A stretch of 61,597 nucleotides of DNA from an uncultured Ellagibacter sp. (GTDB lineage: Bacteria > Actinomycetota > Coriobacteriia > Coriobacteriales > Eggerthellaceae): NCBI GenBank assembly GCA_934663775.1, contig CAKUKU010000011.1:1-61597 (forward strand), in the 5' to 3' direction. This document shows, piece after piece, positions 2,294 through 41,579 of the stretch; within the stretch, counting starts at the first letter, position 1; each line of letters starts with the position of its first letter. Below the pieces are notes generated by a model. That model saw only the letters and a program-made list of their open reading frames with translations, searched no databases and was not told the origin of the DNA. The position numbers and the translations under genes are program-made.

Positions 2294-2314
2294 TCGCGTT
2301 CGCTATGCGAAGCC

Positions 2315-3466: not shown

Positions 3467-3508
3467 TCGCATTCCTTCCCTTCCTTGTATCATTAAAACC
3501 TTATGTCC

Positions 3509-4583: not shown

Positions 4584-4592
4584 ACGGTGCAC

Positions 4593-7571: not shown

Positions 7572-8585
7572 CTAGAGCATCCAGCCCTTCGAGGGACCGT
7601 CGACGATTTCCCAACCAGACGCCAAAAACATTTTGCGCTGCTGTGCGAAGCTTGCACCGCGCCCGCCGTGCTCGGTGCGCTCGACGGTGTCACGCGGGTT
7701 CGTCCCCACTTCCGCCCAGGCGAGGTTCGCACCCGACGCCGCCGTCATCACCGTGTTCGCCGAGCAGTTGAGGCGCGGCTCGATTCCACTTGCCAAACGG
7801 TAGATTGCCACCATGTTCGCGTTCGAAACGTCCGTGCGCATGCCCAGGTCGTAGAGCTGCGTGCCGGGAACGGCAACGCGCTTGCCCACGCCCGCCGACA
7901 CGGGGTGCGTGCCGATGCAGCGGAAGGTCGCCTCGGTGATTTCCTCGGGCGTGTGCTCGGGGCCAACGGGTTCCACGCAGGTAGAGAGGCTCATGCCCGC
8001 CGCAGCCAGATTCGCGAACGTCTCCATGCGCGTCTCAACAGGGATTTCGGTATCGATGCCCTCGCGCATGCGAACGGCATGGTACGCACCGTTCGCGCCC
8101 GCCGCCTTGAGCGCCGTCGTGCGCTCGAGCGTCATGTCGTCGGTGTTCACCAGAAGCGGCATGTCGTCGCCGATTACCTCGCGCACGCTTCCCACCATGT
8201 CGACGAGTTTCTCGAAGCTGTAGCTCGCCGTGGTGAGCAAGAGCATGAGGTTCGCGCCGTCCTCCTTATAGATTTTGGCATACTCGAGCACGTCCTTTTT
8301 GTCGAGCTCGAACTTGCCCTTGCGCGAGGAATTGCACGACGCAAACGAGCAGAACTTGCAGTTCTTCGGGCAGATGGTGGAGTTGAGCCCGATCTGCGCG
8401 TGGATTTCGGCCTTGCCGTCGGCAGCGCGAAGGGAAAGCTCCTGGCCAGCCCAGCGGATATAGGCCGCTTCCTTCGAAGTTTCCTGCACCTGGTAGAGCT
8501 TGAGCGTTTCCGCCTCGGTGAGCCCCTTGCCCAAAAGGCCCCGCTCCACAATGTCGTAGATTTCCTCGTCGAATACCTGAGTCAT
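7572..8585 (-). CDS. Radical SAM enzyme, BioB/HydE/PylB-like (paralogue A)
   Basis: This 337-residue protein should bind a 4Fe-4S cluster and cleave S-adenosylmethionine. The cluster motif is CPKNCKFC (Cys72, Cys76, Cys79), in the CxxxCxxC spacing. It is followed by strands of a TIM barrel, and near the end by GANLAWAEVGTNPRD, a motif shared with the other paralogues here. The length and layout resemble biotin synthase and its relatives, but no BioB-specific 2Fe-2S ligand set can be confirmed by eye and no other biotin genes are present. The ATG has AAGGAGAGGG upstream. It is the second gene of an operon with paralogue B and the repeat protein. The substrate is unknown. Confidence 0.85.
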   Translation of the reverse strand: MTQVFDEEIYDIVERGLLGKGLTEAETLKLYQVQETSKEAAYIRWAGQELSLRAADGKAEIHAQIGLNSTICPKNCKFCSFASCNSSRKGKFELDKKDVLEYAKIYKEDGANLMLLLTTASYSFEKLVDMVGSVREVIGDDMPLLVNTDDMTLERTTALKAAGANGAYHAVRMREGIDTEIPVETRMETFANLAAAGMSLSTCVEPVGPEHTPEEITEATFRCIGTHPVSAGVGKRVAVPGTQLYDLGMRTDVSNANMVAIYRLASGIEPRLNCSANTVMTAASGANLAWAEVGTNPRDTVERTEHGGRGASFAQQRKMFLASGWEIVDGPSKGWML

Positions 8586-8654
8586 TTTCGTCCCTCTCCT
8601 TCTTGCGCGACCCGAGAGGGCCGCGGCGCCCAAAAGGGCGATCTCTGTGTTTCC

Positions 8655-9635
8655 TTACCAGTATTTCGAAGGCCCGAAGGGGACCGTCCATTCCTTGTTC
8701 TCGAATTCCATGCGGCTCTTCAAAAGGTCGGGGCCAAGACCACCGCGCTCGGTTTCGTTTTTGTCGTCGCGTGGGTTTGTCCCAACTTCGGCCCAGCTGT
8801 GGTTGCCGCTGCCGAAGGGCATCTTTCCCTCGGGCGTCAGAAGGCGGAGGATATTGCCGAACACACCGATCTTCGACCAGCTGTAGCGCGGCGCATCGAA
8901 CATCTTCGTGCCGGGAACGGCGATGAAGCCGCCCGCGAAGCCCGACTCGGGCTCGAGCGACACCTCGCGCTCAAGCGCGGCGACGATGTCCTCGGCCCGA
9001 AGCCCGGGACGGATAAGCTCGGTGCACGTGGAGACCTTAAGGCCCGCTTCATGCGCCGCCTCGATCGTCTTCACGCGCGCATCAACGCTCAAGTTGTTAA
9101 TCTCGCCCTCCCCCATGCGGATGGCATGGTAGACGCTCCCCGCACCTGCGGCCTTAAGCTCGCGCGCCATGGAGAGGTCGAAATCGCCCATGTTCGCCAT
9201 GATAGGAAAGTCGGGCAGCTCTTTGTGCGCGGCTTCGATGTAGCGCAGGAATTTCTCGAAGTCGTAGTCGACGGTGATCATGAGCGTGAGGACGTTCGCA
9301 CCGTTGTCGTAATAGTCGTGCGCGTAGTGGAGCATCGTCTCGAGAGGCATCTCATGACGGCCACTCGGACGCGCCTCGTTGCCAACGGCGAACGAGCAGA
9401 ACTCACAGTTGGCCGGGCAGGGATTCGCGTCCATGCCTATCTGCCCGTGCACCTCGGCGATGCCGTTCGCTGTTTTGAAATGACGCTCACGCGCGACGTA
9501 GTTCAAAATATGACCCTCAGGCGTGAAGGGCTCGACATCGCACAGGTAAACTGCGTCCTTATGCGTGAGCGTTTTGCCGTCCATACAGTAATCGGCGATG
9601 CGCAAGACCTCTTCGTCAACGCTTGGCAAAGGCAT
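8655..9635 (-). CDS. Radical SAM enzyme, BioB/HydE/PylB-like (paralogue B)
   Basis: This 326-residue protein carries CPANCEFCSF (Cys73, Cys77, Cys80) after the strand AEVHGQIGMDANP, the same arrangement as in paralogue A. The C-terminal hallmark SWAEVGTNPRDD is also shared. The ATG (MPLPSVDEEV) has GAGGGGG just upstream and lies about 30 nt downstream of the predicted transcription start. The gene shares its upstream region with the plus-strand gene at 9759. It is divergent in sequence from A, so the pair probably performs different steps rather than being a recent duplicate. The reaction is unknown. Confidence 0.85.
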   Translation of the reverse strand: MPLPSVDEEVLRIADYCMDGKTLTHKDAVYLCDVEPFTPEGHILNYVARERHFKTANGIAEVHGQIGMDANPCPANCEFCSFAVGNEARPSGRHEMPLETMLHYAHDYYDNGANVLTLMITVDYDFEKFLRYIEAAHKELPDFPIMANMGDFDLSMARELKAAGAGSVYHAIRMGEGEINNLSVDARVKTIEAAHEAGLKVSTCTELIRPGLRAEDIVAALEREVSLEPESGFAGGFIAVPGTKMFDAPRYSWSKIGVFGNILRLLTPEGKMPFGSGNHSWAEVGTNPRDDKNETERGGLGPDLLKSRMEFENKEWTVPFGPSKYW

Positions 9636-9672
9636 GGAAACCCCCTCGATTGATTCAAACCGTATTTGGTTG

Positions 9673-9701
9673 ATATTAAGACGGAATCCCATATTAGACA
9701 A
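9673..9701 (-). promoter_or_regulatory. Promoter of the radical SAM B-A-LRR operon
   Basis: On the minus strand TTGTCT (9696-9701) and TAATAT (9673-9678) are separated by 17 nt, a good match to a housekeeping promoter. The predicted start is about 30 nt before the ATG at 9635. Its -35 box overlaps the element shared with the 17.26-kb promoter. Confidence 0.6.
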
Positions 9702-9712
9702 TAGCCTATAGA
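9695..9712 (+). promoter_or_regulatory. Shared promoter element TAGACAATnnCCTATA (copy 1)
   Basis: The 16-mer TAGACAATAGCCTATA occurs here and, with only the two central bases changed, at 17263-17278. In both places the end of the element forms a -10 box (here TATAGA, 9707-9712) pointing towards a plus-strand gene, and a divergent minus-strand radical SAM operon starts on the other side. This suggests common control of both parts of the locus. Confidence 0.5.
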
Positions 9713-9758
9713 CAACAGAGGTATCATGTTGGCGAAAGGCGCTTGAAGGAGGATGCCC

Positions 9759-10703
9759 GTGCCGCACGATACGGCGATCGAAGCAGAAAAAGAGCTCTCC
9801 GCGCTCGTGGAAGCGGGCGATGAGCGCGCCGTGATCGACTGGCTCGAAGGCCCCCGGGCGGCGCTCGTCGAGTTCACCGGGCGTTGCCTCGGCGCGGCTG
9901 TCTCCTCGGGCATGGCGGATGCGTCCCTTCTTATGGGGCGACTCGGCTTCCATCTCGCCGTCACCGATGATAAGGCGGCAAAGCGAGCTATTGAACAGGC
10001 GAAAAGCATGCGCGGCTTGCTTGGTTTCCTGGAGGACTATCGCTATTGCAAAGCCCAGCGAAGCTACTATCTTCCCGTCGTGGAAAGCGACGCGTCACGA
10101 GGGCCTATCGAGCAGCTGCTCGCGCACGGGTTGCTTTCCGCAAACGACAAGGCCGAGCTGCTCTCGCTCGCCCTGCGAAGCGACAAGCCCAAGCTCGCGC
10201 GCGCCTTGGCCGCGGGGGGCGCGCGACTCTCCGACGGCATGCGCGACGACGTCCCGAAAGATTTGCGGAAAAGCAGAAGCGATCTCGCCGCGAGCGAGAA
10301 GGACCTCTGGGCGCGGCTCGCCACGCCGCAGCGCACCTTAGAAACGCTCTCGCTCATCTTCGAGCGCACAGAGGGGCACCCCTGTTCCATCCATCGCAGC
10401 TGGTGGGGATCGTATGGGCGCCAGTCGGAGTTCGCCCGCAAGCTCTCGGAGATCGCATGCCGCAGCTGCGCCGAGGCGTGCGACTGCACAGCGAGCCTGC
10501 TTGCGACGCTCGCCGCAGCCGGAACGAGCGCCCTTCCCGGTCTTTCCACTGTGCTCACCTGGGAAAACTTGAAACAATCCTGGCTTGATGACGCCCTCGC
10601 CGCCGCACAGGGGGCGAACAACGCGCAGGGAGCCGCGCTCATCATGCGCGCGGCGCAAAACGTTTCTTCCGCCGCAGACGAGCTCGACCTTCTGGAGTTC
10701 TAG
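9759..10703 (+). CDS. Hypothetical helical protein, possibly ankyrin-like
   Basis: I do not recognise the family. The protein is 314 residues from the GTG, which has AAGGAGG six bases upstream; the ATG two codons earlier touches the Shine-Dalgarno and is less likely. The sequence is soluble, alanine- and leucine-rich and predicted helical. One stretch, EQLLAHGLLSANDKAELL followed by ALAAGGARLSDG, looks like degenerate ankyrin repeats. There is a cluster of cysteines (CRSCAEACDC) near residues 238-247. It is followed by the VWA protein one base after its stop codon, and then by the MoxR ATPase, so the three genes form one operon and probably one complex. Confidence 0.6.
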   Translation: MPHDTAIEAEKELSALVEAGDERAVIDWLEGPRAALVEFTGRCLGAAVSSGMADASLLMGRLGFHLAVTDDKAAKRAIEQAKSMRGLLGFLEDYRYCKAQRSYYLPVVESDASRGPIEQLLAHGLLSANDKAELLSLALRSDKPKLARALAAGGARLSDGMRDDVPKDLRKSRSDLAASEKDLWARLATPQRTLETLSLIFERTEGHPCSIHRSWWGSYGRQSEFARKLSEIACRSCAEACDCTASLLATLAAAGTSALPGLSTVLTWENLKQSWLDDALAAAQGANNAQGAALIMRAAQNVSSAADELDLLEF

Positions 10704-10704
10704 C

Positions 10705-12039
10705 ATGGCCCGAAACGCGCATCCCTCCGAGTTGCTCGACGAGGCGGCGTCGCTCGCCGACAGCATGGTCGCACTGTGCCGCGATGACCTGCTCACGAGC
10801 ATCAAGTTCACGAACCGTCCGCTCGCGCGCCTGCCGCACCGCATCCAGATGGACCGCGGCGGATGCATGACCGATGGGCGCGAGGCGCTCTTCTCCCCCG
10901 CCTTCGCCCTGAACAACTTCAAGGGTGCGCGGCAGGTCATCACGCGCGCCTACCTGCATATGATCGTGCACTGCCTGTTGCGCCATCCCTTCCCACGCGC
11001 CGACATTGACCCGCTCACCTGGAGCGTTGCCTGCGATCTGTCGGTCGGCTGCGTTCTCGGCCAGCTGGAATGCGACGCAATCAGCTACAAAGACGACGAG
11101 CGCGACTGCCGCATCGCCGAATGGGCGCACCGCGTCGAGCAACCGACGGCGCAGGCGTTCTACGCGCTGCTTGTGCGCGAGGGCCTAAGCCAGGAAGAGC
11201 TTGCCAAGCTGGAAATCGCCATCGGCATGGACAGCCATGAGCTGTGGTTCGAAGATCCCGAGGGCCTTGAACCCGACCGATCGCAAACGGAAAGCGACAC
11301 GCAGCACGAGCTCGAGCAGCGATGGGAAGAAATCGCCACTGCGACGGAGATGGATATGCAGCGCGAGCACGACACCGCGCCGAGCACCCTCACAAGCCAG
11401 CTTCGCAATGTCCATGCAAGCACGATGAGCTTAGAAGAGCTGCTGCAGATCTACGCCGCGCCGCACGAGAGCATGACGCTCGACGACGAGGAGTTCGACT
11501 ACATCTACTACAGCTACGGTCTGCGCGAACTGGACGGGATCGCACTGGTAGAACCCCTGGAATACCGCGAGACACCCCAGATCAGGGACTTCTGCATCGC
11601 CATCGACACATCCGGCAGCTGCAGCGGGCCGCTTGTGGAGGCCTTCGCGTCGAAGGCGTGCGGAATGCTTTTGGAGAGCGCGTCGGTGGGCGACGAGACG
11701 CGCATCTGGATGGTGCAATGCGATTCGCAGGTGCAGGACACCCGCCTTTTGCGCACGCGCGACGACATGGTCGATTGGCTTTCCTCGCTCGAGCTCAAGG
11801 GCTTCGGGGGCACGGACTTCCGCCCCGTGTTCGAGCTGATGGATCGCATGACCGACGACGGCACGGTGGCAAACTGGGAAGCGCTCATCTACTTCACGGA
11901 CGGGCAGGGAACCTTCCCCGACCAGGCGCCGCCGTGGGATACAGCCTTCGTCTTTGTCGACGAGGCGGGCTCATGCCCCGCATGGGCAACAAGGGTACTA
12001 ACCTATTCCGACGAGCTTACGAGCGAAAGCGAGCGATAG
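10705..12039 (+). CDS. DUF2201-type protein: degenerate metallopeptidase domain plus VWA-like domain
   Basis: This 444-residue protein has the two-part layout of the DUF2201 family: an N-terminal putative metallopeptidase domain and a C-terminal von Willebrand A-like domain. The MIDAS metal site of the VWA part is intact (DTSGS, Asp301, Ser303, Ser305), with GFGGTDFRPVFE further on. In the N-terminal domain the expected HExxH is HMIVH, with a third histidine at position 94 (His85, His89, His94). The zinc ligands remain, but the catalytic glutamate is replaced by methionine. It starts one base after the upstream stop, with GGAG at the right distance, and abuts the MoxR gene. VWA and MoxR proteins normally act together as a metal- or cofactor-loading chaperone. 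Confidence 0.82.
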   Translation: MARNAHPSELLDEAASLADSMVALCRDDLLTSIKFTNRPLARLPHRIQMDRGGCMTDGREALFSPAFALNNFKGARQVITRAYLHMIVHCLLRHPFPRADIDPLTWSVACDLSVGCVLGQLECDAISYKDDERDCRIAEWAHRVEQPTAQAFYALLVREGLSQEELAKLEIAIGMDSHELWFEDPEGLEPDRSQTESDTQHELEQRWEEIATATEMDMQREHDTAPSTLTSQLRNVHASTMSLEELLQIYAAPHESMTLDDEEFDYIYYSYGLRELDGIALVEPLEYRETPQIRDFCIAIDTSGSCSGPLVEAFASKACGMLLESASVGDETRIWMVQCDSQVQDTRLLRTRDDMVDWLSSLELKGFGGTDFRPVFELMDRMTDDGTVANWEALIYFTDGQGTFPDQAPPWDTAFVFVDEAGSCPAWATRVLTYSDELTSESER

Positions 12040-13518
12040 ATGAACATCAAGCAGGCAAAAGAGCAGGTCAAAAAAACTTGCGTCGCGTACCTCACCAAAG
12101 ACGCCTTCGGCGAGTACGTGATGCCTATCGAGACGCAGCGCCCGATTTTCCTTCTGGGGGCGCCCGGCATCGGCAAGACCGCGATCATGGCGCAGGTGGC
12201 GGCGGAGCTCGACTTGGGACTTGTGGACTACTCCATGACGCACCACACACGCCAGTCGGCCATGGGCCTGCCGTTCATCACGAAACGCCGCTACGGCGAG
12301 CGCGACGTCGACATCTCGGAATACACGATGAGCGAGATCATCGCAAGCATCTACGAGAGCATCGAGAAAACGGGGCGCAGGGAGGGCATCCTGTTCCTCG
12401 ACGAGATCAACTGCGTAAGCGAGACGCTCATGCCTATGATGCTTCGGTTCCTGCAGAGCAAGATGCTCGGCAACCACCGCGTCCCCGACGGTTGGGTGGT
12501 CGTCAGCGCCGGCAACCCGCTCGAATACAACAAGAGCGCGCGCCAATTCGACGTCGTGACGATGGACCGCGTGAAGCGCATCGAGGTGGAGCCCGACCTT
12601 GCAGCATGGCGCGAGTACGCTGTGGCGTGCGGGGCTCATCCGGCAGTCGTTAGCTTCCTTGATATGCGCCCCGACTGTTTCTATCACATGGAGGCCAAGG
12701 GGCGAAGCCGCGAGTTCGTCACCGCGCGCGCCTGGATGGACCTCTCGAACATGATGCGCCTGTACGAGAAAAACGGCCTGGAAATCGACGACGAGCTGGT
12801 GGGCCAATACTTGCAGACGGCGTCGATCGCTTCGGATTTCTGCGTCTATCTGCGCCTTTTCAGCAGTTACAGCGCCGACTACCGCATCGAGGACATCCTT
12901 AGCGGGAACGCCGACGAGCCTTTGCGCGAGAAGGCGGCGCACGCCGGGTTCGACGAGCGAGCCGCCTTGGCCGGCCTTTTGATCGACGCGCTCGCCGCCC
13001 ATGCGGAAAGCGACGTCGAGCAGGAGCGCGAGCTTGCAGAGCTTCGAGCGGCACTCGTTCGCGCCAAAGGGGAATCCGACGCCGCGACCGCACTTTCCCA
13101 GGAAGCCAGCGAGCGCGCAGCTCGGCTCGAGGCGGACGCCGCGCGCTACCGAAACGATGCGCTTGCCCGTAGCGTCGAGCACGGCGCGATCGAGAGCCTA
13201 CGCGCATGGGCGGCACAGCTCGGCGGCGGAATGGACTTGAAAGGCATCGCCGCGAGCTTCAACGAGAGGCTCGGCGAGCACAAGCGGCAAGGGGTGATAA
13301 TCGAGGCCGAGCTCGCCTCCGCCCTCGACTTCATGGACGCAGCCTGGGGTGAAGGCAACGAGATGACGGTGGCGCTCAACGAGATGACCATGAACAAGAC
13401 GCTTTCCGCCTTCATCGCGAAGCACGGCTGCGACGCCTACTACGACCGCAGCGAGACGCTCATGCTCGACGCGCGCGCCGAGCGCCTCGCCGAGCGTCTG
13501 GCGCAACTCGAAGCGTAA
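12040..13518 (+). CDS. MoxR-type AAA+ ATPase with long helical C-terminus
   Basis: The 492-residue protein begins at the base after the VWA gene's stop. Walker A is GAPGIGKT (residues 40-47), Walker B is GILFLDEIN (about 116-124) and sensor 1 is SAGNP. The AAA core ends near residue 290. The remaining 200 residues are charged and heptad-like (ELAELRAALVRAKGESD and onwards), an extension not found in plain MoxR proteins and probably a coiled coil. MoxR ATPases remodel or activate metal enzymes together with VWA partners. Here the natural client would be a protein of the surrounding radical SAM locus, but that is inference from position only. Confidence 0.85.
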   Translation: MNIKQAKEQVKKTCVAYLTKDAFGEYVMPIETQRPIFLLGAPGIGKTAIMAQVAAELDLGLVDYSMTHHTRQSAMGLPFITKRRYGERDVDISEYTMSEIIASIYESIEKTGRREGILFLDEINCVSETLMPMMLRFLQSKMLGNHRVPDGWVVVSAGNPLEYNKSARQFDVVTMDRVKRIEVEPDLAAWREYAVACGAHPAVVSFLDMRPDCFYHMEAKGRSREFVTARAWMDLSNMMRLYEKNGLEIDDELVGQYLQTASIASDFCVYLRLFSSYSADYRIEDILSGNADEPLREKAAHAGFDERAALAGLLIDALAAHAESDVEQERELAELRAALVRAKGESDAATALSQEASERAARLEADAARYRNDALARSVEHGAIESLRAWAAQLGGGMDLKGIAASFNERLGEHKRQGVIIEAELASALDFMDAAWGEGNEMTVALNEMTMNKTLSAFIAKHGCDAYYDRSETLMLDARAERLAERLAQLEA

Positions 13519-13521
13519 AAA

Positions 13522-13556
13522 CGGCGGGGGCCTCCCATCTGGGACGACCCCCGCCG
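13522..13556 (-). terminator. Terminator between convergent operons
   Basis: A perfect 9-bp GC stem (CGGCGGGGG/CCCCCGCCG) with a 17-nt loop. On the minus strand it is followed by TTTTTACG, so it mainly ends the radical SAM C-D-E operon. The plus side has only a weak pyrimidine tract. Confidence 0.7.
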
Positions 13557-13615
13557 CCAACCTTCCCCTTTCGCGCCCCGCGCGTCGCACCCTGCGCCCT
13601 CGCGCATCGCGCCTC

Positions 13616-14680
13616 TTACTCGGAAAGCTTCGCTTCCATATATTCAGGAGTCAAATCGACATAGCTGCCGTCGCCCTTCATCAGACGACGAAATCCCGCC
13701 TGGTAGTAAAGCTCGCGCACCGCGGGAACGTCCAGGCCGCGGGCGGCGGAGGTGTCCTCGGCAGTGTCGCGCGGGTTGAAACCCGTCTCTGCGGTAACGC
13801 AGTTCGACCCGCTGACAAGGCTGATTAGGTTGGCCTCGTGATGGCCCATGTGAATAGCATGCGGACGATCGCACATGAGCAGCGTCTCGATTGCGTTCAT
13901 CTGAGCCATGCGCAGGTTGGTGATCTCGTTTTCCAGCCCCTCGTAGCGCGTGCCGGGAACGCTCGTGCGTTTCATGACGCCCGTGGTGTCGAGTCCGCCG
14001 AAGTCCTCATCGCGCTGGCGAATTTCCATCAACCGCGTCGCAATGTCCTCGACCGGCGTCTCCGCACCGACCGGCTCGCAGCATTCCTCCACCTTAAGGC
14101 CGGCAGCATGCGCAGCGTGGATGGTCTGCTCGCGGCGTTCGGGCGTGATCTTGGTGAGGCAACCCTCGCCCAGGCGCTTGACGTGATAGACGGCGGACAC
14201 GCCCGCATCCTTGAGCTTCCTAAAGAATTTTTCCGTCGTGTCGCCGATATTGGAAATAAGGCGCACGTCAGTGGGAATGGCTGCGCGCACGGCCTTCACG
14301 CACTCGAGGTAGTGATCCTCGTCGAACGTGTTCATCGTCATAAGGTAAAGCCCGTACAAGTCACCCCCCTTCGCGAACTCGACCGCACGGCGAACAACCT
14401 CGTCAACAGGCATAACGACGTGGTCGGTAAAGCAGGTGTGGCTCTTGCCGAAGCTGCAGAACTGGCAGTCCGCCTCGCACGGGTAGACTTCGATTCCGAT
14501 CTGCCCCCAGATAGTCGCCGCATTGCCCGTCTTCTCGCGCTGGATGCCATCGGCCGCGCCGCGGATAGCCGTTGCCTCCGGGCTCGCCTCGTCGCACTCC
14601 AGCATTTCCACAACCTCTTCGTAGGTAGGGGCCTTACCTTCCCACGCGCGGGAGATGATCTCTTCGATTTTTTTGTCCAT
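13616..14680 (-). CDS. Radical SAM enzyme, BioB-like (paralogue C)
   Basis: This 354-residue protein is one of three tandem copies with the same length and architecture. Cluster ligands are Cys68, Cys72 and Cys75 in YPCEADCQFCSF. The barrel contains SNIGDT, VYHVKRLGEG and CEPVGAET, and the end has NCVTAETGFNPRDTAEDTS. An extra cysteine pair (ECCEP) near residue 205 is conserved in all three. The ATG has GAGAGAGGGATGA upstream. It is the third gene of an E-D-C operon read on the minus strand, 113 bp after D, and it is the most divergent of the three. Paralogous radical SAM proteins in tandem suggest successive or substrate-varied steps of one pathway. Confidence 0.85.
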   Translation of the reverse strand: MDKKIEEIISRAWEGKAPTYEEVVEMLECDEASPEATAIRGAADGIQREKTGNAATIWGQIGIEVYPCEADCQFCSFGKSHTCFTDHVVMPVDEVVRRAVEFAKGGDLYGLYLMTMNTFDEDHYLECVKAVRAAIPTDVRLISNIGDTTEKFFRKLKDAGVSAVYHVKRLGEGCLTKITPERREQTIHAAHAAGLKVEECCEPVGAETPVEDIATRLMEIRQRDEDFGGLDTTGVMKRTSVPGTRYEGLENEITNLRMAQMNAIETLLMCDRPHAIHMGHHEANLISLVSGSNCVTAETGFNPRDTAEDTSAARGLDVPAVRELYYQAGFRRLMKGDGSYVDLTPEYMEAKLSE

Positions 14681-14793
14681 TCATCCCTCTCTCAGTGAAT
14701 AGCCGCCGGGCGGACACGCGCCCGCCCGATATTTCTAGACGCCAGTCTTTGCGCGGGCCTCGCACGAGCTTCACACGTCCGTGCCCGCATTCC

Positions 14794-15858
14794 CTACTTG
14801 GAAAGCTTCGCCTCCATGTATTCAGGCGTCAAATCAACGCGCGAGCCGTCCCCCCGCACGAGCATGCGGAATCCCGCCTGGTAGAACATCTGACGCACGG
14901 CAGGCACGTCGAGCCCACGCCCAGCGGAGGTGTCCTCGGCGGTGTCGCGCGGGTTGAAGCCCGTTTCCGCCCAGATGGTGTTCGCGCCGCTCATAAGGCT
15001 CACCGTGTTGGGCTCGTGCACGGCCATCCAGGGGAAGTCGTCCTGATCGACCATGACAAAAGTCTCGATCGCCCCGATGAGCGCGAGACGCATGTCGGTG
15101 ATCTCGTTGGCGAGGCCCTCGTAGCGCGTGCCGGGCACCGAGTTGCGCTTCATGACGCCCGCGCAATCGTGCAGCCCCATCTCGCGCCCGCGAGCCTGGA
15201 TTTCGAACAGGCGCGTGGCGATCGCCTCGTTGGACGTTTCGGCGCCGATGGGCTCACAGCAGTCCTGGATGGAAAGACCCGCTTCGTGAGCTGCGCGAAT
15301 GGTTGCCTCGCGACGGTCGGGCGAAATTTTCGTGAGCTCGCCTTCACCTAAGCGCTTCACATGGTAGATGGCATTTAGGCCCGCCGCCTTCAACTGCTCG
15401 AAGTATTCCCTGTCGGTGTCGCCGATGTTGGAGACCAGCCGCGTGCTCGCGGGGATGGCAGCGCGCACGGCGCGCACGCAATCGAGGAAGTACTGCTTGT
15501 CGAACGAGTGCATGGTCATCAAATAGAGCGCGTACAGATCGCCGCCCTTGGTGAACTCCTTCGCGCGCTTGACGACCTCGTCGATGGGCATGGTCACGTG
15601 CTCGGTGAAGCAGGTGTGGCTCTTGCCGAAGCTGCAGAATTGGCAGTCCGCCTCGCACGGGTACACGTCGACGCCGATCTGTCCGAGCAGCACGGCGGCG
15701 TTGCCCGTCTTCGCGCGCACGAGGTCGTTGGCCGCCCCGCGCACCGCCGTCGCCTCAGGCGAGGCCTCGTCGAGCGCGAGCAGCTCCATGACTTCCTCGT
15801 ACGTCGGCGCCTTCCCCTCCTGGGCGCGAGCGATGATCTCGGCGATCTCTCGTTTCAT
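14794..15858 (-). CDS. Radical SAM enzyme, BioB-like (paralogue D)
   Basis: This 354-residue middle copy has cluster ligands in YPCEADCQFCSFGKS, followed by HTCFTEHVTM, GDLYALYLMTM and DCCEPIGAET. The C-terminal block is TIWAETGFNPRDTAEDTS. The first 48 residues are nearly the same as in paralogue E because the two genes share an uninterrupted 142-bp identical stretch (see the repeat entries), while the rest has diverged. This is the pattern of gene conversion at the 5' end. The ATG is preceded by GAGGAC at a slightly long distance of about 11 nt, so translation may depend partly on the upstream gene. The substrate is unknown. Confidence 0.85.
   Translation of the reverse strand: MKREIAEIIARAQEGKAPTYEEVMELLALDEASPEATAVRGAANDLVRAKTGNAAVLLGQIGVDVYPCEADCQFCSFGKSHTCFTEHVTMPIDEVVKRAKEFTKGGDLYALYLMTMHSFDKQYFLDCVRAVRAAIPASTRLVSNIGDTDREYFEQLKAAGLNAIYHVKRLGEGELTKISPDRREATIRAAHEAGLSIQDCCEPIGAETSNEAIATRLFEIQARGREMGLHDCAGVMKRNSVPGTRYEGLANEITDMRLALIGAIETFVMVDQDDFPWMAVHEPNTVSLMSGANTIWAETGFNPRDTAEDTSAGRGLDVPAVRQMFYQAGFRMLVRGDGSRVDLTPEYMEAKLSK
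15697..15838 (-). repeat. 142-bp perfect direct repeat, copy in paralogue D
   Basis: This stretch is identical, base for base, to 16844-16985. It covers codons of residues about 7-54 in D. Silent positions are also identical although the flanks differ clearly, which indicates recent gene conversion or duplication. Confidence 0.9.
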
Positions 15859-15940
15859 TGCGTTGCCGTCCTCTCTCTTTCAAGCCCTCCCGCAAGGGCG
15901 ATTCCTCGACGGCGCCCTCATGTGGAAAGGCTTTCCGCTT

Positions 15941-17005
15941 CTACTCGGCGAGTTTCGCTTCCATATACTCGGGCGTGAGCTCGATGCGGGTTCCGTCGCC
16001 GCACACGAGGGTCTTGAATCCCGCCTGATAGAACATCTGGCGCACGGCGGGTACATCGAGCCCGTGGTTGCCGGCGGTGTCCTCGGCCGTGTCGCGCGGG
16101 TTGAAGCCCGTTTCCGCGCAAATGCTGTTGCCGCCGGAAAGCAAGCTCACGGAGTTGGGCTCATGGATGGCAAACCAGGGCATCTTCGACTGCTCGACCA
16201 TCACAAACACTTGGATCGCCCCGATGAGCGCAAGGCGCATATCGGTAATCTCGTTTTGCAGGCCCTCATAACGCGTGCCGGGCACCGAGTTGCGTTTCAT
16301 GACGCCCGAACCGTTGTAGACGCCGTAATCGTCGTCGCGCTGCTTGATTTCGAACAGGCGCGTGGCGATCGCCTCGTTGGGCGTCTCGGCACCGATGGGC
16401 TCACAGCAATCCTGAACTTGCAAGCCAGCCTCATGAGCTGCGGCGATGGTCGCCTCGCGGCGTTCAGGGGCGATCTTAGTGAGCTCTCCTTCGCCGATGC
16501 GCTTCACGTGGTACGCGCCGTCGAGACCAGCAGCTTTAAGCTTCTCGAAATACTCGACGTCGGTATCGCCGATATTGGAGAACAACATCGTTTGGGGCGG
16601 GATGGCAGAGCGAACGGCCTTCACGACCTCCAAGAAATAATCCTCATCGTAGCTGTTCATGCACATGAGCCACAGACCGTACAGATCACCGCCTTTGGTA
16701 AATTCCTTCGCACGCTTGACGACTTCCTCAACGGACATGGTCACATGCTCGGTGAAGCAGGTGGTCGATTTGGCGAACGAGCAGAATTGGCAGTCCGCCT
16801 CGCACGGGTACACGTCGATGCCGATTTGCCCCCACATCGCGCAGGCGTTGCCCGTCTTCGCGCGCACGAGGTCGTTGGCCGCCCCGCGCACCGCCGTCGC
16901 CTCAGGCGAGGCCTCGTCGAGCGCGAGCAGCTCCATGACTTCCTCGTACGTCGGCGCCTTCCCCTCCTGGGCGCGAGCGATGATCCCGGTGATTTTCTGA
17001 TCCAT
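15941..17005 (-). CDS. Radical SAM enzyme, BioB-like (paralogue E)
   Basis: This 354-residue protein is the first gene of the three-gene operon. Ligands are in YPCEADCQFCSFAKS. It shares HVKRIGEGELTKI, DCCEPIGAET and NSICAETGFNPRDTAEDT with its siblings. GGAGAGGG precedes the ATG, and a consensus -10 box (TATAAT, 17046-17051 on the minus strand) lies about 40 nt upstream. Differences from D cluster in the middle of the barrel and in the last third, where substrate contacts would lie in BioB-like enzymes; this fits related but distinct substrates. The stop of E and the start of D are 82 bp apart. Confidence 0.85.
   Translation of the reverse strand: MDQKITGIIARAQEGKAPTYEEVMELLALDEASPEATAVRGAANDLVRAKTGNACAMWGQIGIDVYPCEADCQFCSFAKSTTCFTEHVTMSVEEVVKRAKEFTKGGDLYGLWLMCMNSYDEDYFLEVVKAVRSAIPPQTMLFSNIGDTDVEYFEKLKAAGLDGAYHVKRIGEGELTKIAPERREATIAAAHEAGLQVQDCCEPIGAETPNEAIATRLFEIKQRDDDYGVYNGSGVMKRNSVPGTRYEGLQNEITDMRLALIGAIQVFVMVEQSKMPWFAIHEPNSVSLLSGGNSICAETGFNPRDTAEDTAGNHGLDVPAVRQMFYQAGFKTLVCGDGTRIELTPEYMEAKLAE
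16844..16985 (-). repeat. 142-bp perfect direct repeat, copy in paralogue E
   Basis: This is the partner of 15697-15838, at the same position within the homologous gene. The repeat spacing is 1147 bp. It would be a natural site for unequal crossing-over that fuses or deletes one of the paralogues. Confidence 0.9.
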
Positions 17006-17045
17006 GACCCTCTCCGATCGATAGAAGCACTACTGCAATTCGTCC

Positions 17046-17073
17046 ATTATAAGACTAGAACCACTATATGACA
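17046..17073 (-). promoter_or_regulatory. Promoter of the radical SAM E-D-C operon
   Basis: A consensus TATAAT lies on the minus strand at 17046-17051, about 40 nt before the start codon at 17005. A weak -35 candidate (TGTCAT, 17068-17073) is 16 nt further upstream. Confidence 0.5.
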
Positions 17074-17262
17074 GCGAACCTGGAGGAAGAAGGAGGATTT
17101 CGACTTCGATCAACTAGGGCACAAAAACCGACTTGTCCCGCAGAGCGCCGCTTTCAACCAAAAATAATTTGCGCGTCCACGAGGCACCGCTTGCATCGTT
17201 CGCACTCGTATCACTCGCGCCATTCGCCCTCGTATCACACGTACATGCGCGACACATATTAC
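17074..17262. other. Non-coding part of the 314-bp divergent intergenic region
   Basis: No gene is supported here. The stretch contains two copies of CTCGTATCAC about 25 bp apart (near 17209 and 17230) and is otherwise unremarkable. A 65-codon plus-strand frame (17068-17265) has unusual His/Ser-rich composition, no good ribosome binding site and no recognisable similarity. Confidence 0.4.
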
Positions 17263-17280
17263 TAGACAATGTCCTATACT
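17263..17280 (+). promoter_or_regulatory. Shared promoter element TAGACAATnnCCTATA (copy 2)
   Basis: TAGACAATGTCCTATA differs from the copy at 9695-9710 only at the two central bases. It ends in the -10 box TATACT (17275-17280), 40 nt before the ATG at 17320. It lies between the divergent E-D-C operon and the desulfurase-fusion operon. Confidence 0.55.
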
Positions 17281-17319
17281 TAGCACAATGTATCGTTACC
17301 CTAATCGGAGGACGAGTCA

Positions 17320-19719
17320 ATGAAACGAGCGAACAATCGATCCGAACACCAGCCCATGCGAGGGCCTGTGAGCCATCCCACCCCCAGCGAAGCCGAGCTC
17401 GCACGCACATGCGGGAAAACCATCGCCCTCGTGCTCGCAACCGATTTCGGGACAACGCCCCTCAAAGTCGCCTTCGAGAACGAAGACAAAAAACCCGTCG
17501 TATGCGGGAATCCAAAAGACGGCGAGGAGAAGACGCCCCGCCCCTTGCAGCGATTCGAGGGCACGACGACGACGTCAATCGCTGCGATGCGCGCGCTCGA
17601 GGCAAGGTTCGCGCGCGTTTATGTGCTCGCGGGAGGAACGCCCGAGGAGCGCGGAGCACTTGAAGCTGCGGTTTCGAACGACATCGCAGCCGCGGATGGC
17701 GGCGGCAATGAGGCCTGCCAGGAAGTTGGGCAAATCGACTTCATCCCCTTCGACGTCGATAAAGCCTACCGGGCAACCGTCGATGCGTGCGGGTTCACCT
17801 TGTACGACGTCCCCAAAGGCGTGCTCGATTACGCGGCGCGCGCGCTCGAGGACAACCCCAACGCCGACTCCGTCATGCTGCTTTCCTGCGATCAAGTTCG
17901 CATCACTGCAGGTCATCTCTTTGAAATCTGCAACATTTTCCGCAATAACCCCACTCGCGACGTCGTAGCATCATGGATTCAGTGGTACCGCCTCACGCCG
18001 ATGCTCATTTCGCGCAGCTTCTTAGAGGGGCTCGATGCGAGCGGGCTGTGCGACCCCGGCCCGAACGGCGTCGATCGCCCGTTGCCGCGCATCAACCTCA
18101 AAGACGTCGTCTTCGGGGAGGAAAAACTCGCACCAAACGCCATCGTGCCCGAAAAGCTGACTGCGTTCGAAAAGGGCCGCACGCTTTCCGCGCGCGAGGC
18201 GGTGCAGATTGCGCGAAAAGAGATGGGCGATATCGACCTGCGGGCCAAGGGAGCTTTCGGGAACCTTCAGTCGCTCAAACAGTCCTGCTCGCACGAAAGT
18301 GCCACTGGCACTTTCAGCTCGTGCGGAACTCGCTTTGTGAAGGCCCCCGAAAGCTCAGATACATCCCGAAAACGAGGCGCCAAGCGCTCCGCCGCCGACG
18401 AGGAGCTCATCGAGATCGCGCGCGACGTCGCGTCCCGCATGGACGCCTGGCGCGCGCAGCTTTCCCGCGACGAGCAAGCCAAGCTCACCTGGGCAGACTC
18501 CTGGGCATGGCGCAACCGTGAGGACTTCCCGCTGCTCAACGACCGCAAGCAGAAGAACACACTCGCCTACTTGGACTCCGCCGCCACGACGCAGCGCTGC
18601 TTCCGCGCGCTTCAGGCAGAAGCAAGCTTCAACGAGCACGAGAACGCCAATATCTACCGAGGCGGCTACGAGCTTTCCGCAAACGCAACGAAGCACTTCA
18701 ACGAGGCGCGCAAGGCGCTCGAAGACTTCATCGGAGCCGACCGCAGGCAAACCGTCTACACCATGAACTCGTCCGCCTCGTGCAACCTCGTGGTGCAATC
18801 GTGGGGCACGTTCAACGTGAGCGAGGGCGACACGATCGTCGTGGCGCTCTCGGAGCACCACTCCAACCAGCTGCCCTGGCTGATGCTCGCCCGCCGCACC
18901 GGCGCGAACCTGGAATACGTGCCGCTTCTGCCCGACGGCAGGATCGACCTTGACGCCTACGCGAAGCTGCTCGAGAAGCGGCCGAAGCTCGTGTGCGTCG
19001 CGCACGTTTCCAACACCTTCGGCATCGTGAACCCCGTTCGCGAAATGGCGAAACAGGCACATGCGGTCGGCGCCCGCTTCATGCTCGACGCCGCCCAGTC
19101 GCTTCCGCATGTCCCCTTCGACGTGAAGGAAATCGGATGCGACTTCGCCGCGTTCTCCGCCCACAAGATGTATGGACCCTCAGGAATCGGCGGGCTCTAC
19201 ATCTCCGCCGACGCGTTCAAGGAAATGGACCCCGTCGCATCCGGCGGCGGCGCCATCTCCCACGTCTCCACCGACTCGTATTACCTGCGCGAAGGCGCCG
19301 CGCAGTACGAGGTGGGCACGCCGCCCATCTCGCAGGCGATCGGATGGGCGGGTGCCGTCGAGTACCTTAATCGCCTCGGGATGGGCAACGTGCTCGCGCA
19401 CGCCGAGGCCATGACCGACTTCGCCGTCTTCGCGCTTCGCGGCATCGAAGGCATCACCATCTGGGGCGACCACACCAAAGCCGACGGTGCGGGCGGAATC
19501 GTCACGTTCTCGCTCCCCAACGTCACGCCAGCGCAGATCGGCACCGAATGCGGAGCGCTTGGCGTGGCGGTGCGCGCGGGCGGCCACTGCGCCCTGCCCA
19601 TCGCCGCGAGCATCGGCGTCGGCGGCACGGGCCGCGTAAGCTTCGCCGTGCACACCACCTGCGAGGATATCGAAGCGCTCGCCGTGGCGATGGAGATGTG
19701 CAGAAGGATGCACCGATGA
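17320..19719 (+). CDS. Fusion of a nucleotidyltransferase-like domain and a SufS/CsdA-type cysteine desulfurase
   Basis: The protein is 799 residues; GGAGGACGAG precedes the ATG. Residues about 410-799 are a complete class V, PLP-dependent cysteine desulfurase of the SufS group: AYLDSAATTQ at the start, SEHHSNQLPW, the PLP lysine Lys616 in SAHKMYGPSG, and the catalytic cysteine Cys757 in RAGGHCALP. Residues about 30-310 resemble the MocA/MobA-type nucleotidyltransferase fold (VMLLSCDQVRITAGHLF, then PMLISRSFLEGL). The usual glycine-rich nucleotide loop is replaced by VLATDFGTTPLKVAFE, so activity is doubtful. A linker of about 90 residues joins them. It could deliver sulfur to a cofactor or substrate of the adjacent methyltransferase and radical SAM enzymes. 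The desulfurase call is firm; the N-terminal call is tentative. Confidence 0.85.
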   Translation: MKRANNRSEHQPMRGPVSHPTPSEAELARTCGKTIALVLATDFGTTPLKVAFENEDKKPVVCGNPKDGEEKTPRPLQRFEGTTTTSIAAMRALEARFARVYVLAGGTPEERGALEAAVSNDIAAADGGGNEACQEVGQIDFIPFDVDKAYRATVDACGFTLYDVPKGVLDYAARALEDNPNADSVMLLSCDQVRITAGHLFEICNIFRNNPTRDVVASWIQWYRLTPMLISRSFLEGLDASGLCDPGPNGVDRPLPRINLKDVVFGEEKLAPNAIVPEKLTAFEKGRTLSAREAVQIARKEMGDIDLRAKGAFGNLQSLKQSCSHESATGTFSSCGTRFVKAPESSDTSRKRGAKRSAADEELIEIARDVASRMDAWRAQLSRDEQAKLTWADSWAWRNREDFPLLNDRKQKNTLAYLDSAATTQRCFRALQAEASFNEHENANIYRGGYELSANATKHFNEARKALEDFIGADRRQTVYTMNSSASCNLVVQSWGTFNVSEGDTIVVALSEHHSNQLPWLMLARRTGANLEYVPLLPDGRIDLDAYAKLLEKRPKLVCVAHVSNTFGIVNPVREMAKQAHAVGARFMLDAAQSLPHVPFDVKEIGCDFAAFSAHKMYGPSGIGGLYISADAFKEMDPVASGGGAISHVSTDSYYLREGAAQYEVGTPPISQAIGWAGAVEYLNRLGMGNVLAHAEAMTDFAVFALRGIEGITIWGDHTKADGAGGIVTFSLPNVTPAQIGTECGALGVAVRAGGHCALPIAASIGVGGTGRVSFAVHTTCEDIEALAVAMEMCRRMHR

Positions 19720-20684
19720 GGGATAATAAGTCACTTAACGATATCGTCGATGTCGCCGCGAAAGCGAAGACTGCAGAGATTGCCGAGCACTACGGGGAAG
19801 TCGCACGCCAGGCCACGCAGGCGGCAAGCAGAGCCGGGGCGGCGAGCAAAACCAAGGTCGCAAGCGGGGCTGGCATGGCGAGCAGGGCCGGAGCTGCAAG
19901 CGGATCCGAGGCGGTAAGCGGGTCGGCGGCAACGTGCGAATGCTGTGAGTCCGACCCTGCGCGTGCGGGCGAGGCGTTTTCCCTCTACGCAAGCGAAGTG
20001 CTCGCGGGCCTTCCCGAAGGCGCGCTCGCCGCGAGCCGCGGATGCGGCGACCCCGTGGCGAAAGCGAACCTGCAGCCCGGCGAGCGCGTTCTCGATTTGG
20101 GAAGCGGCGGCGGCATCGACGCGCTCATCGCCGCACGTCTCGTAGGTTCCGAAGGATACGTGTTCGGGCTTGACATGACGCCCGACATGGTGGCGCTCGC
20201 ACGCAGGAACGCAGAGGAGGCGGGCATCGGCAACGTCGAGTTCATCGAAGGCTCGATCGACGATATCCCCCTGCCCGACAATGCAGTCGACGTGGTTCTC
20301 TCGAACTGCGTCATCAACCTGTGCGAGAACAAACAGGCCGTGTTTGCCGAGGCAAAGCGCGTGCTCGCCCCCAGCGGACGCCTCGTCGTCTCCGACATCG
20401 TCGCATTCTCCAACATTCCCGAAGGCGCCGAAGAGGCCCTTGCGCACATCACCGGCTGCAGGCGAGGCATCACGCCGTGCGGTCGCTACCGCGAGATGAT
20501 GGCGGCATGCGGGTTCTCGCGATGCGACATCGAGCCTAAAACCGTCTACACCGAGAAGGTTCTGCGAGAGAAGGCCGAGCGCAAGGAGCGCACCGAGGCG
20601 CTCGAAACGGCGCTGCGCTTTGAGGTCGACTCGGTCTGCGGGAGCGCCATCATCCGCGGGCACGTCCCCGACCAGGAGCGATAA
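19716..20684 (+). CDS. ArsM/AS3MT-like SAM-dependent methyltransferase
   Basis: This 322-residue protein is coupled to the desulfurase fusion by an ATGA overlap. The Rossmann SAM site is VLDLGSGGGID, followed by GLDMTPDMVALAR, as in arsenite methyltransferases. Four cysteine positions typical of that family are present: a CECC cluster at 74-77, Cys110 in RGCGDPV, Cys198 in SNCVINL and Cys248 in ITGCRRG. The 50-residue distance from Cys198 to Cys248 equals that between Cys156 and Cys206 of human AS3MT, two arsenic ligands. An odd segment at about residues 32-73 is made almost only of Ala, Ser, Gly and a few charged residues. The natural substrate may be arsenite, an organoarsenical or another thiophilic compound. 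Confidence 0.82.
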   Translation: MRDNKSLNDIVDVAAKAKTAEIAEHYGEVARQATQAASRAGAASKTKVASGAGMASRAGAASGSEAVSGSAATCECCESDPARAGEAFSLYASEVLAGLPEGALAASRGCGDPVAKANLQPGERVLDLGSGGGIDALIAARLVGSEGYVFGLDMTPDMVALARRNAEEAGIGNVEFIEGSIDDIPLPDNAVDVVLSNCVINLCENKQAVFAEAKRVLAPSGRLVVSDIVAFSNIPEGAEEALAHITGCRRGITPCGRYREMMAACGFSRCDIEPKTVYTEKVLREKAERKERTEALETALRFEVDSVCGSAIIRGHVPDQER

Positions 20685-21661
20685 TGCTCGATACGCGAAT
20701 CGAGGCAATCGTCGACCAGGCCGTCTGCGGGCACGCGCCGTCTCGAGAAGAGATACTCCTCCTCATGGAACTCGATGCGGGAAGTGCCGAGGCGGCTTAC
20801 GTGCGTTGGGGAGCCGACGTGCTCGGCCGCCGCGCGTCGGGCGGCAAGGGGCAAATCTACGCGCAAATCGGCCTCGACGCCACGCCGTGTCCCGAGAATT
20901 GCGCTTTCTGTTCCCTCTCCGCACGCAACACCAATGCAACGGGACGCGCCGAGGTACCCGATGCTGAAATCGTCCGCTACGCGCGCGTCTTCGACGAGGC
21001 GGGCGTCCATATGATCTCGCTCATGGCGACCGCCGCATACGACTTCGAACATTTCCTACGCGTGGTGGCGGCAGTCCGCGACGCCGTCGGCGCCGACATG
21101 CCGCTCATGGCAAACATCGGCGACATTACGATTGACCAGGCGAAGCAACTGAAAGATTCCGGAGTTCAGGCCTTCTACCACGCCCATCGGCTCGGCGAGG
21201 GGGTAATCACCGGCATCGCCCCCGAAACGCGGCTCGCCACCATCGCGGCCGTGCGGGAGGCGGGGCTTGCGCTCATGTCCGCAGTCGAACCGGTGTATCG
21301 CGGCGTCCCTCACGAAGAAATCGCCGATCGCATGCTGGAAGTGATTTCTCAGAAACCTTACTGTTCGGGCGTGGGTGCGCTCACCGCCGTGCCCGGAACC
21401 GCAATGGCTCAGAAAGTCCCCTATACCCGCAGGCAGGCCGCGCATCTTGCCTGCACCATGCGACTTGCAGCGGGGGAATCCATCCCCTTCGGCACCGGCT
21501 GCGGCAACGTCGTCTGGGCCGATGCGGGCACAAACCCTCGCGGGCGCGACCTCTCCACCGATCCCGATTATCTTCGCCGCGATGTCGCCCGGCTGCGAAA
21601 AGAACTCACTCGCCAAGAATGGGAAGTGCCCGCGCGGCCGCTTTCCAAGTGGTCTGAATAG
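20684..21661 (+). CDS. Radical SAM enzyme, BioB-like (paralogue F)
   Basis: This 325-residue protein has its ATG overlapping the methyltransferase stop by one base, which puts it firmly in the same operon as the desulfurase fusion and the ArsM-like protein. Cluster ligands are Cys69, Cys73 and Cys76 in TPCPENCAFCSL. It shares QIGLDATPC, FYHAHRLGEG and VWADAGTNPRG with the minus-strand paralogues, and is closest in layout to paralogue A. The order sulfur-mobilising enzyme, methyltransferase, radical SAM enzyme is the strongest functional hint in the locus. A strong terminator follows 60 bp downstream. Confidence 0.87.
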   Translation: MLDTRIEAIVDQAVCGHAPSREEILLLMELDAGSAEAAYVRWGADVLGRRASGGKGQIYAQIGLDATPCPENCAFCSLSARNTNATGRAEVPDAEIVRYARVFDEAGVHMISLMATAAYDFEHFLRVVAAVRDAVGADMPLMANIGDITIDQAKQLKDSGVQAFYHAHRLGEGVITGIAPETRLATIAAVREAGLALMSAVEPVYRGVPHEEIADRMLEVISQKPYCSGVGALTAVPGTAMAQKVPYTRRQAAHLACTMRLAAGESIPFGTGCGNVVWADAGTNPRGRDLSTDPDYLRRDVARLRKELTRQEWEVPARPLSKWSE

Positions 21662-41555: not shown

Positions 41556-41579
41556 TGCCAAACCTCACCTTCCCCACGG

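Follow-up and report, generated by a model that had tools for sequence, protein, structure and literature searches.

The window analysed here, a stretch of 61,597 nucleotides from an uncultured Ellagibacter sp., carries six radical S-adenosylmethionine (SAM) proteins and an ArsM-type methyltransferase in a gene set of approximately 21.7 kb, which extends from position 1 to 21661. The probable role of this cluster is the production, uptake or remodelling of an organic arsenic compound. In the reading that we consider fairly probable, it represents an organoarsenical (arsenosugar-type) pathway to which a family of BioB-fold radical SAM enzymes has been added, in an anaerobe that is Eggerthellaceae-like by its nearest relatives. 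The analysis itself shows the parts of the cluster, the fold of radical SAM class A, the arsenic-type methyltransferase cysteines, an upstream motif shared by two gene groups, and, in other bacteria, the repeated linkage of the radical SAM genes to ArsS and ArsM. The set also contains an ATP-binding cassette (ABC) importer, an FtsX/ABC exporter, VWA/MoxR genes, and a MobA-like/SufS-like fusion.

Radical SAM proteins, methyltransferase and fusion protein

As described in the initial annotation, the region 7572-21661 encodes six radical SAM proteins of 325-354 residues within 14 kb, each with a CxxxCxxC motif and a common G[TF]NPR[DG] block. The genes are located at 7572-9641 and 13616-17005 on the reverse strand and at 20684-21661 on the forward strand. 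Their alignment shows 44 invariant columns common to all six, spread across the whole length, and four classes (A, B, F, and C/D/E), with A-E sharing 32-36% identity with F. Class A (7572-8588, reverse strand, 338 residues) and class B (8655-9641, reverse strand, 328 residues, with CPANCEFC and GTNPRD motifs) both probably start at an ATG one or two codons further in. The paralogues C (13616-14680), D (14794-15858) and E (15941-17005) are encoded on the reverse strand and have 354 residues each; C and D carry CEADCQFC and GFNPRD, and the nearest relative of E adjoins ArsS in locus L092. Identity reaches 79-80% between D and E and no more than 69% between C and either of them; these genes represent a local triplication. 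Class F (20684-21661, forward strand, 325 residues) contains CPENCAFC and GTNPRG.

The CxxxCxxC motif is kept in all six window proteins and in 65 of 65 aligned rows. All six belong to the radical SAM superfamily, with PF04055 above its gathering score in B (43 bits), C and D and less than 1 bit below it in A, E and F. A profile built from the six proteins matched at least 224 proteins at E ≤ 1e-3 when the 7999 candidates with the most shared words were scored, and copies 98-99% identical to B, F and the first part of the fusion protein are present in other data, indicating that the observation of these six proteins is not due to chance. They represent a hitherto unnamed BioB-fold family of radical SAM enzymes, several members of which are named 'biotin synthase' in a source database, an annotation that the LipS1/LipS2 pair has also received. 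The FastTree trees of this family warn of long branches, and the position of class B in them is unsure. A diverged F-class protein was also observed in a 569-residue open frame with an N-terminal extension, approximately 4 kb from ArsS (L101:2229).

The predicted structure of class A is a full (β/α)8 radical SAM barrel of the BioB/HydE/PylB fold, with V. parvula BioB as the nearest structure and 15-19% identity in structural alignments with BioB, HydE and PylB. Among curated families, BioB also comes closest to A, B, C, D and F, and it ties with CofH for E. However, all six proteins score far below the cut-off of 225 of the BioB model TIGR00433 (27.7-59.1 bits, including 45 bits for B and 59 bits for F), and the profile positions aligned with the auxiliary-cluster cysteines of BioB, which we take to be C97, C128 and C188 in the E. 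coli enzyme, were found by eye to hold other residues. The sole further widely kept cysteine (C204 of A) occurs in 51 of 65 rows, is offset by two residues, and is replaced by Ala in F, whose gene is coupled to that of the desulfurase fusion. The earlier term 'BioB-like' thus holds for the fold of the class A model but not for the model scores or the auxiliary cysteines, on which grounds the six proteins were rejected as BioB or sulfur-inserting enzymes.

The SAM-dependent methyltransferase (19716-20684, forward strand) most likely starts at the ATG that overlaps the stop codon of the fusion gene (ATGA). Its best-scoring models are those of arsenite methyltransferases, and the cysteines of its GCG, SNC and GC motifs have aligned counterparts in the structures 5evj and 4kw7, both arsenite methyltransferases; in CmArsM the As(III)-binding residues are presumably Cys72, Cys174 and Cys224. 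Judged by its sequence, this protein is ArsM-type, as had been proposed. Among 26 aligned rows, the three As(III) cysteines are kept in all 11 radical SAM-linked ArsM-type rows compared (the window, L001, L003, L008, L015, L019, L026, L030, L093, L096 (13249) and L105). The rows outside these 11 include six ArsM-ArsS fusions with all three cysteines, four relatives of 364-375 residues without the first and third, and P0216, the genomic context of which is unavailable, with the third one lost; the others are P0214 (the same as L001) and the remote methyltransferases of L051, L052 and L060.

The fusion gene (17320-19719, forward strand) encodes a MobA/MocA-like nucleotidyltransferase (residues ~1-300) followed by a SufS-type cysteine desulfurase (~400-797). 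The desulfurase half scores 415.9 bits against TIGR01979, below the SufS cut-off of 475. The window protein contains the GGHC cysteine and the AHK lysine (for pyridoxal phosphate) of the SufS catalytic site, which the fusion family conserves. The first half matches PF12804 below its cut-off. The model of residues 1-400 (pLDDT 82.5) has a MocA/MobA-like nucleotidyltransferase fold, and Foldseek matched it to Rv0371c, which we take to be MocA-like (2we9, E 2.3e-7, target template modelling score 0.59-0.68, root-mean-square deviation 5-8 Å), and to MobA (1h4d, E 3.1e-5). An alignment read by eye shows that the glycine-rich nucleotide loop of MobA, the usual form of which we assume to be LAxGxSxRMG..K, is not kept in the fusion, where LATDFGTTPLKV stands in its place, and that the CDQVR stretch is kept. 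The ATGA overlap at the fusion stop and the start of F, which falls on the final base of the methyltransferase stop codon, bear out the reported overlaps of the methyltransferase with both neighbours, and because of them the fusion gene, the methyltransferase and F form a coupled three-gene unit. In P0214 (L001), P0216 and L105 the desulfurase is further fused to a methyltransferase, suggesting that both are tied to one task.

It is conceivable, if unlikely, that the cluster performs sulfur chemistry instead, with BioB/LipA-type sulfur-inserting radical SAM enzymes fed by the desulfurase fusion and a methyltransferase that methylates a thiol, the product being a sulfur metabolite. The proximity to BioB in family (A, B, C, D and F) and structure (A), the conserved catalytic residues of the desulfurase, and the rhodanese-like proteins near some relatives are consistent with this explanation. 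The non-Cys residues at the auxiliary-cluster positions and the distribution of C204 argue against it, and no SufS-like gene was found in the eight Negativicutes stretches read. The initial annotation had reasoned that BioB-type enzymes need cysteine-derived sulfur. This argument is weak, because the BioB auxiliary-cluster cysteines are not at their positions, and because among 60 public loci, counted on profile hits, the nucleotidyltransferase-desulfurase fusion occurs near the radical SAM gene in only 6 and any SufS-like protein in 15. These loci are of unequal length (3-21 kb), and an absent neighbour therefore means little.

Linkage of the radical SAM family to ArsS and ArsM

The independent scatter of radical SAM homologues in relatives that would refute the initial proposal was not observed. 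Their linkage to arsenic genes recurs in other lineages, which rules out a lone coincidence of ArsM and radical SAM genes in the window. Near the radical SAM gene, the 60 loci contain a three-cysteine ArsM-type methyltransferase in seven cases and ArsS in five. Among 43 genomes that carry the radical SAM family, ArsS (TIGR04167) was found above cut-off in 21 (joined ones counted), and in 7 (G001, G002, G004, G005, G011, G017 and G038) it is on the same contig, approximately 10 kb or less from a family member; the ArsS of G004, truncated where the contig ends, scores under the cut-off, and G011 (once at 294.5 bits) and G017 show this arrangement twice. True BioB served as a weak control: 10 of the 43 carriers have it over its cut-off and 3 of these also have ArsS, with no shared contig in any of the three.

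Since the 43 genomes were chosen for carrying the radical SAM family, samples of whole classes were drawn, in which scoring was limited to the 6-7 best candidates of each genome, so that copy numbers are lower bounds. The Coriobacteriia (n = 296) include 16 radical SAM carriers and 50 genomes with ArsS at E ≤ 1e-50 (33 over the cut-off); ArsS accompanies the family in 14 of the 16 carriers (12 over the cut-off), against 36 of 280 other genomes (21 over the cut-off). Five of these carriers were already in the first scan (G002, G009, G010, G021 and G037), as was one of the ten in Negativicutes (G038). In the latter class (n = 350), ArsS is over the cut-off in 18 genomes, and eight have both genes (Fisher 3.6e-10). 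The two genes lie within 9 kb of each other in seven of the eight, with G477 unlinked; the gaps, measured between matched stretches rather than gene ends, are 88 bases in G038, 105 in G388 and G413, 111 in G465, 115 in G421, 2.9 kb in G417, and 8.4 kb in G449. The chance of such linkage in seven of eight genomes is ~4e-15 under a uniform model. Family members also adjoin ArsS in a few other Bacillota beyond the Negativicutes.

In G417 (L126), approximately 10 kb hold an arsenosugar ArsM (529 bits, cut-off 400), a radical SAM gene, a NitT/TauT-type importer, and ArsS (411 bits, cut-off 300). The order on one strand is ArsM, TorD-like protein, ferredoxin-like protein, a molybdoenzyme of the dimethyl sulfoxide (DMSO)/selenate family (under cut-off), radical SAM, ATPase, permease, substrate-binding protein, and ArsS. 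Such molybdoenzymes, all under cut-off, were observed beside ArsM and radical SAM genes at L126:6910, with the TorD-like chaperone, and at L127:12360; they are possible reductases of an arsine oxide. The close relative G001 contains, within ~27 kb of one contig, FtsX/ABC genes, an importer, F, A, and a triple nucleotidyltransferase-desulfurase-methyltransferase fusion, then ArsS, and then an ArsM-ArsS fusion. The distance from an ArsM-ArsS fusion to a family member is ~9 kb in G001, 3 kb in G017, 14 kb in G244, and ~20 kb or more in G002 and G011. Classes A, C/D/E and F and the Negativicutes clade all have ArsS neighbours, which thus occur in several separate clades of the radical SAM tree, and class B is linked to arsenic through the window only.

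In the class of Desulfosporosinus (that of G030), we read 12 stretches from 12 genomes as well as G030 (L042) and G024 (L032), of 18 carriers. The order TIGR04283-TIGR04282-radical SAM was found in 5 of these 12 stretches and in L042, and the same three genes occur in other orders in L041, L044 and L045. Among these loci, scoring with NCBI models covered both families in L042 and TIGR04283 in L041 and L045, and the genome search detected TIGR04283 in G029, G030, G032 and G033. Both are glycosyltransferase families with 'arsenosugar biosynthesis' in their NCBI names.

Several other genes were observed around the linked genes. In Negativicutes radical SAM/ArsS operons, a protein of 276-328 residues with plasmid-initiator Rep3 WH1/WH2 domains occurs nearby (L131:8517-9350), which may be a regulator or a mobility trace. 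It has a Pfam match in L131, and proteins similar by eye are found at L054:6322, L126:14255 and L128:16432, the L054 protein having no Pfam match at 1e-5. DJ-1/PfpI-family proteins recur near radical SAM/ArsS genes of Coriobacteriia (L091:2511, L092:12749, L097:540, L101:4062 and L105:13566). A CobW/HypB-like GTPase accompanies operons of an ArsM-like methyltransferase and an ArsM-ArsS fusion, with relatives near radical SAM genes in a Clostridia bacterium and an archaeon (sites L091:9242, L100:3363, L107:3035, L094:8159, L028:4300, L046:6992 and L047:1724). Many ArsS copies (G001, G008-G011, G037 and others of the 296 Coriobacteriia) contain one in-frame TGA, as expected for selenoproteins.

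The last two observations, together with the DMSO/selenate-family molybdoenzyme (under cut-off) near some relatives, would also fit a system for a metal or metalloid other than arsenic (selenium, tellurium or mercury), in which import, methylation, a radical step and export follow one another, as may be compared with the Sec-assisted organometallic (SAO) system. The importer ATPase of the window has SaoA as its best match (230 bits), and the substrate-binding protein of L054 weakly resembles SaoX (66 bits), both under cut-off. We nevertheless find this explanation distinctly unlikely: no SAO model reaches its cut-off, the linked genes above cut-off are ArsS and, in L126, the arsenosugar ArsM, and the methyltransferase shares its cysteines with arsenite methyltransferases.

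A number of findings weigh against an arsenic pathway. The methyltransferase scores 249.2 bits against NF008823, measured without its first five residues, which is under the cut-off of 263 (relatives in L093 and L127 reach 256 and 320), and ArsM-like folds can act on other substrates. No open reading frame of at least 80 residues resembling ArsS was found in the 61.6-kb window, and a hidden ArsS was rejected on this basis; the six radical SAM proteins have no match to TIGR04167 (cut-off 300) at E ≤ 1e-3, and no arsenic gene besides the methyltransferase was identified among the 30 larger window proteins, which were those scored. The Coriobacteriia with both genes have them at most 15 kb apart in only 3 of 14 genomes (G002, G244 and G271). 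The chance figures assume uniform placement and independent genomes and are therefore generous, and the co-occurrence statistics ignore kinship. In the Desulfosporosinus class, 18 of 82 genomes carry the radical SAM family and 17 of these have no ArsS; the only ArsS-bearing carrier is G686, where ArsS lies 57 bases from the radical SAM gene. The word 'arsenosugar' in TIGR04282 and TIGR04283 is a database label, not a tested function. Finally, many members (L033-L040, L043, L048-L051, L053 and L056-L059), from Deltaproteobacteria, Desulfoluna, archaea, some Bacillota and a Gordonibacter, have no ArsS, ArsM-type, TIGR04282 or TIGR04283 neighbour above thresholds in the loci examined, and the family is wider than arsenic. 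The organoarsenical proposal of the initial annotation is supported in part, by the ArsM-type methyltransferase and by relatives of A, C/D/E and F near ArsS or ArsM-ArsS fusions in Coriobacteriia.

Surrounding genes and proposed pathway

To the left of the stretch covered by the initial annotation, the same gene set extends to position 1. The frame-1 reading at 1-264 (forward strand), which runs off the window and ends with ...GLCGNTAMHCH...KMKL*, is probably the C-terminal end of a DUF4418-like membrane protein. Its sequence resembles relatives in L030 and L134 for which DUF4418 (PF14387) scores were obtained, and this family is present in 14 locus groups. The frame u226 (2279-2959, forward strand) was rejected as a gene, being antisense to that of the substrate-binding protein, and the DUF4418-like reading was found instead. 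An FtsX-like permease of a MacB-type exporter (283-1494, forward strand, PF02687 50.3 bits; near radical SAM genes in 12 of the 60 loci) is followed by the exporter ATPase (1494-2162, forward strand, PF00005 94 bits). The ABC importer on the reverse strand comprises an NMT1/THI5/SsuA-like substrate-binding protein with a probable twin-arginine signal (2315-3493; PF09084 56.6 bits, TIGR01409 20.7 bits), two permeases (3540-4592 and 5372-6394, both PF00528), and a NitT/TauT-type ATPase (4593-5408), the best model of which is SaoA (NF040729, 230.3 bits, cut-off 360). The substrate-binding protein scores 49.4 bits against TIGR01728, below the cut-off of 163.5, and its nearest solved chains are THI5 (E 9e-6).

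At the left edge of the annotated stretch and within it, four further proteins had not been listed. A BspA-type leucine-rich repeat protein (LRR_5, PF13306; 6539-7732, reverse strand) has relatives near radical SAM genes in L001, L012, L026, L027, L028 and L093. A 316-residue protein without a Pfam match at E ≤ 1e-3 (9753-10703, forward strand), the partner of the VWA/MoxR proteins, is followed on the same strand by a VWA/DUF2201 protein (10585-12039; PF09967 and PF13203; real start likely near 10705) and a MoxR-like AAA ATPase (12040-13518; PF00004 and PF07728, with PF20030 below cut-off). Relatives of these three are found in the same order in L092. One contig of G011, read over the adjoining stretches L092 and L093, contains F, the fusion, a relative of E, ArsS, DJ-1, the 316-residue protein, VWA and MoxR, and continues with two genes, a radical SAM gene, a methyltransferase, LRR_5, FtsX, ABC, permease, ATPase, permease, and the substrate-binding protein. 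This gene order places the VWA/MoxR genes in the set in at least one other genome; beyond G011, none were seen near radical SAM genes in the remaining loci (3-21 kb). Further away, the window contains a 1548-residue protein with antigen I/II C2, DUF11 and Cna-B-like domains (28595-33241) and molybdenum-type genes (40779-45960) for an ABC ATPase and permease, a ferredoxin-like protein, and a MobB-MobA fusion.

Two copies of the motif TAGACAATNNCCTATA are present in the window, against 0.03 expected. The first copy (9695-9710, forward strand) lies between the start of B and the 316-residue protein gene, and the second (17263-17278, forward strand) is upstream of the fusion gene, so that each precedes one of two rightward gene groups starting in divergent gaps. 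As a candidate, this motif is possibly a shared regulatory site; an exact search of 110 other loci found no copy.

Importers are frequent neighbours, with an NMT1-type substrate-binding protein in 15 and Pot-type importer parts in 10 of the 60 loci. The presence of an importer beside the radical SAM gene in many loci suggests that the radical SAM substrate, or part of it, may be external, and the existence of two unrelated importer types points to two substrates that are related to each other. The same two types, and the many members without an arsenic neighbour, could be taken to mean that the family is a general importer accessory unrelated to arsenic and shuffled beside ArsS by chance. Given the linkage probability calculated for Negativicutes and the ArsS neighbours in several separate tree clades, we regard this as very improbable.

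The likeness of the substrate-binding protein to THI5 also raises cofactor or vitamin salvage, in which the THI5/NMT1-type importer would take up a pyrimidine or nucleoside, the ArsM-like enzyme would serve in a new job, and the radical SAM proteins, the MobA-like nucleotidyltransferase, the desulfurase, and MoxR/VWA would remake a cofactor. The MocA/MobA-like fold, the molybdenum-type genes at 40.8-46.0 kb, and the role of MoxR/VWA pairs in metal-cofactor insertion speak for it, as do a nucleoside hydrolase (L092) and a deoxyadenosine-deaminase-kind amidohydrolase (L134, under all cut-offs), each in one relative. This explanation leaves the ArsS/ArsM linkage in Coriobacteriia and Negativicutes unaccounted for, and the nucleotidyltransferase domain is without the usual MobA glycine-rich loop by eye; it therefore appears quite improbable.

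For the organoarsenical pathway that we favour, the importer would bring in an organic substrate, either an organoarsenical or an arsenic acceptor, and the ArsM-type enzyme would methylate trivalent arsenic. In relatives, this methylation would be followed by the action of ArsS, which is reported to add an adenosyl group (PMC12159101). Each BioB-fold enzyme would use one [4Fe-4S] cluster and SAM to generate a 5'-deoxyadenosyl radical, which would abstract hydrogen from a substrate that is imported or carries arsenic, and thereby make, rearrange or cut a bond in the arsenic-carrying carbon skeleton; this chemistry is inferred from the fold class alone. The MobA-like/desulfurase protein may provide nucleotide activation of the substrate and/or sulfur that would go into the many Fe-S clusters or a thio-arsenical, and the FtsX/ABC pair would export the product. 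The single sightings of the nucleoside hydrolase (PF01156) and the amidohydrolase would suit the removal or change of the base on the ArsS product.

More tentatively, the BioB-fold family, which spans several phyla, might be a distinct second class of radical SAM enzymes for organoarsenic compounds. Its members would follow or replace ArsS, with imported arsenosugar-like molecules or acceptors as substrates, and would form, move or cleave a carbon-arsenic bond or a sugar bond. If this is true, the six copies would point to a whole unexplored organoarsenic metabolism in gut and rumen anaerobes, and the TIGR04283-TIGR04282-radical SAM operons would be its ArsS-free branch. An enzyme family that travels with ArsS/ArsM and with its own importers would open the organoarsenic metabolism of anaerobes to direct test and would bear on bacterial handling of arsenic in food and water. 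The annotation of family proteins labelled 'biotin synthase' would also gain, since they are without the BioB auxiliary-cluster cysteines.

Comparison with known systems

The gene set is similar to the arsenosugar system of ArsM and ArsS (TIGR04167) in its ArsM-type methyltransferase with As(III) cysteines and in the same-contig ArsS, at most approximately 10 kb from a family member, in G001, G002, G005, G011, G017, G038, G417, G686 and others. Unlike that system, the window has no ArsS and adds six BioB-fold radical SAM enzymes, the ABC importer, the MobA-like/desulfurase fusion, VWA/MoxR, and the FtsX exporter. The accessible parts of open-licence papers on arsenosugars and radical SAM enzymes describe no comparable gene set.

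The arsinothricin genes arsQML also place a radical SAM enzyme next to ArsM, and the report on them (PMC8552651) gives ArsL as a protein of 428 residues with CX3CX2C at 194-201 and arsQ as a GntP-type efflux permease. In contrast, the window proteins have 325-354 residues with the motif at ~65-80, and an ABC importer and a desulfurase fusion are present. The six proteins have no ArsL-named match in the model library, in which the presence of an ArsL model was not checked. The SAO system, as described in PMC13188914, likewise combines a NitT/TauT-type ABC importer with metalloid-related partners, but no SAO model reaches its cut-off in the window, SaoA included. The gene combination was not found in the open-licence literature (5.39 million papers, with most subscription journals outside this set). 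The folds of these proteins are known, and their combination is best read as an undescribed, enlarged pathway.

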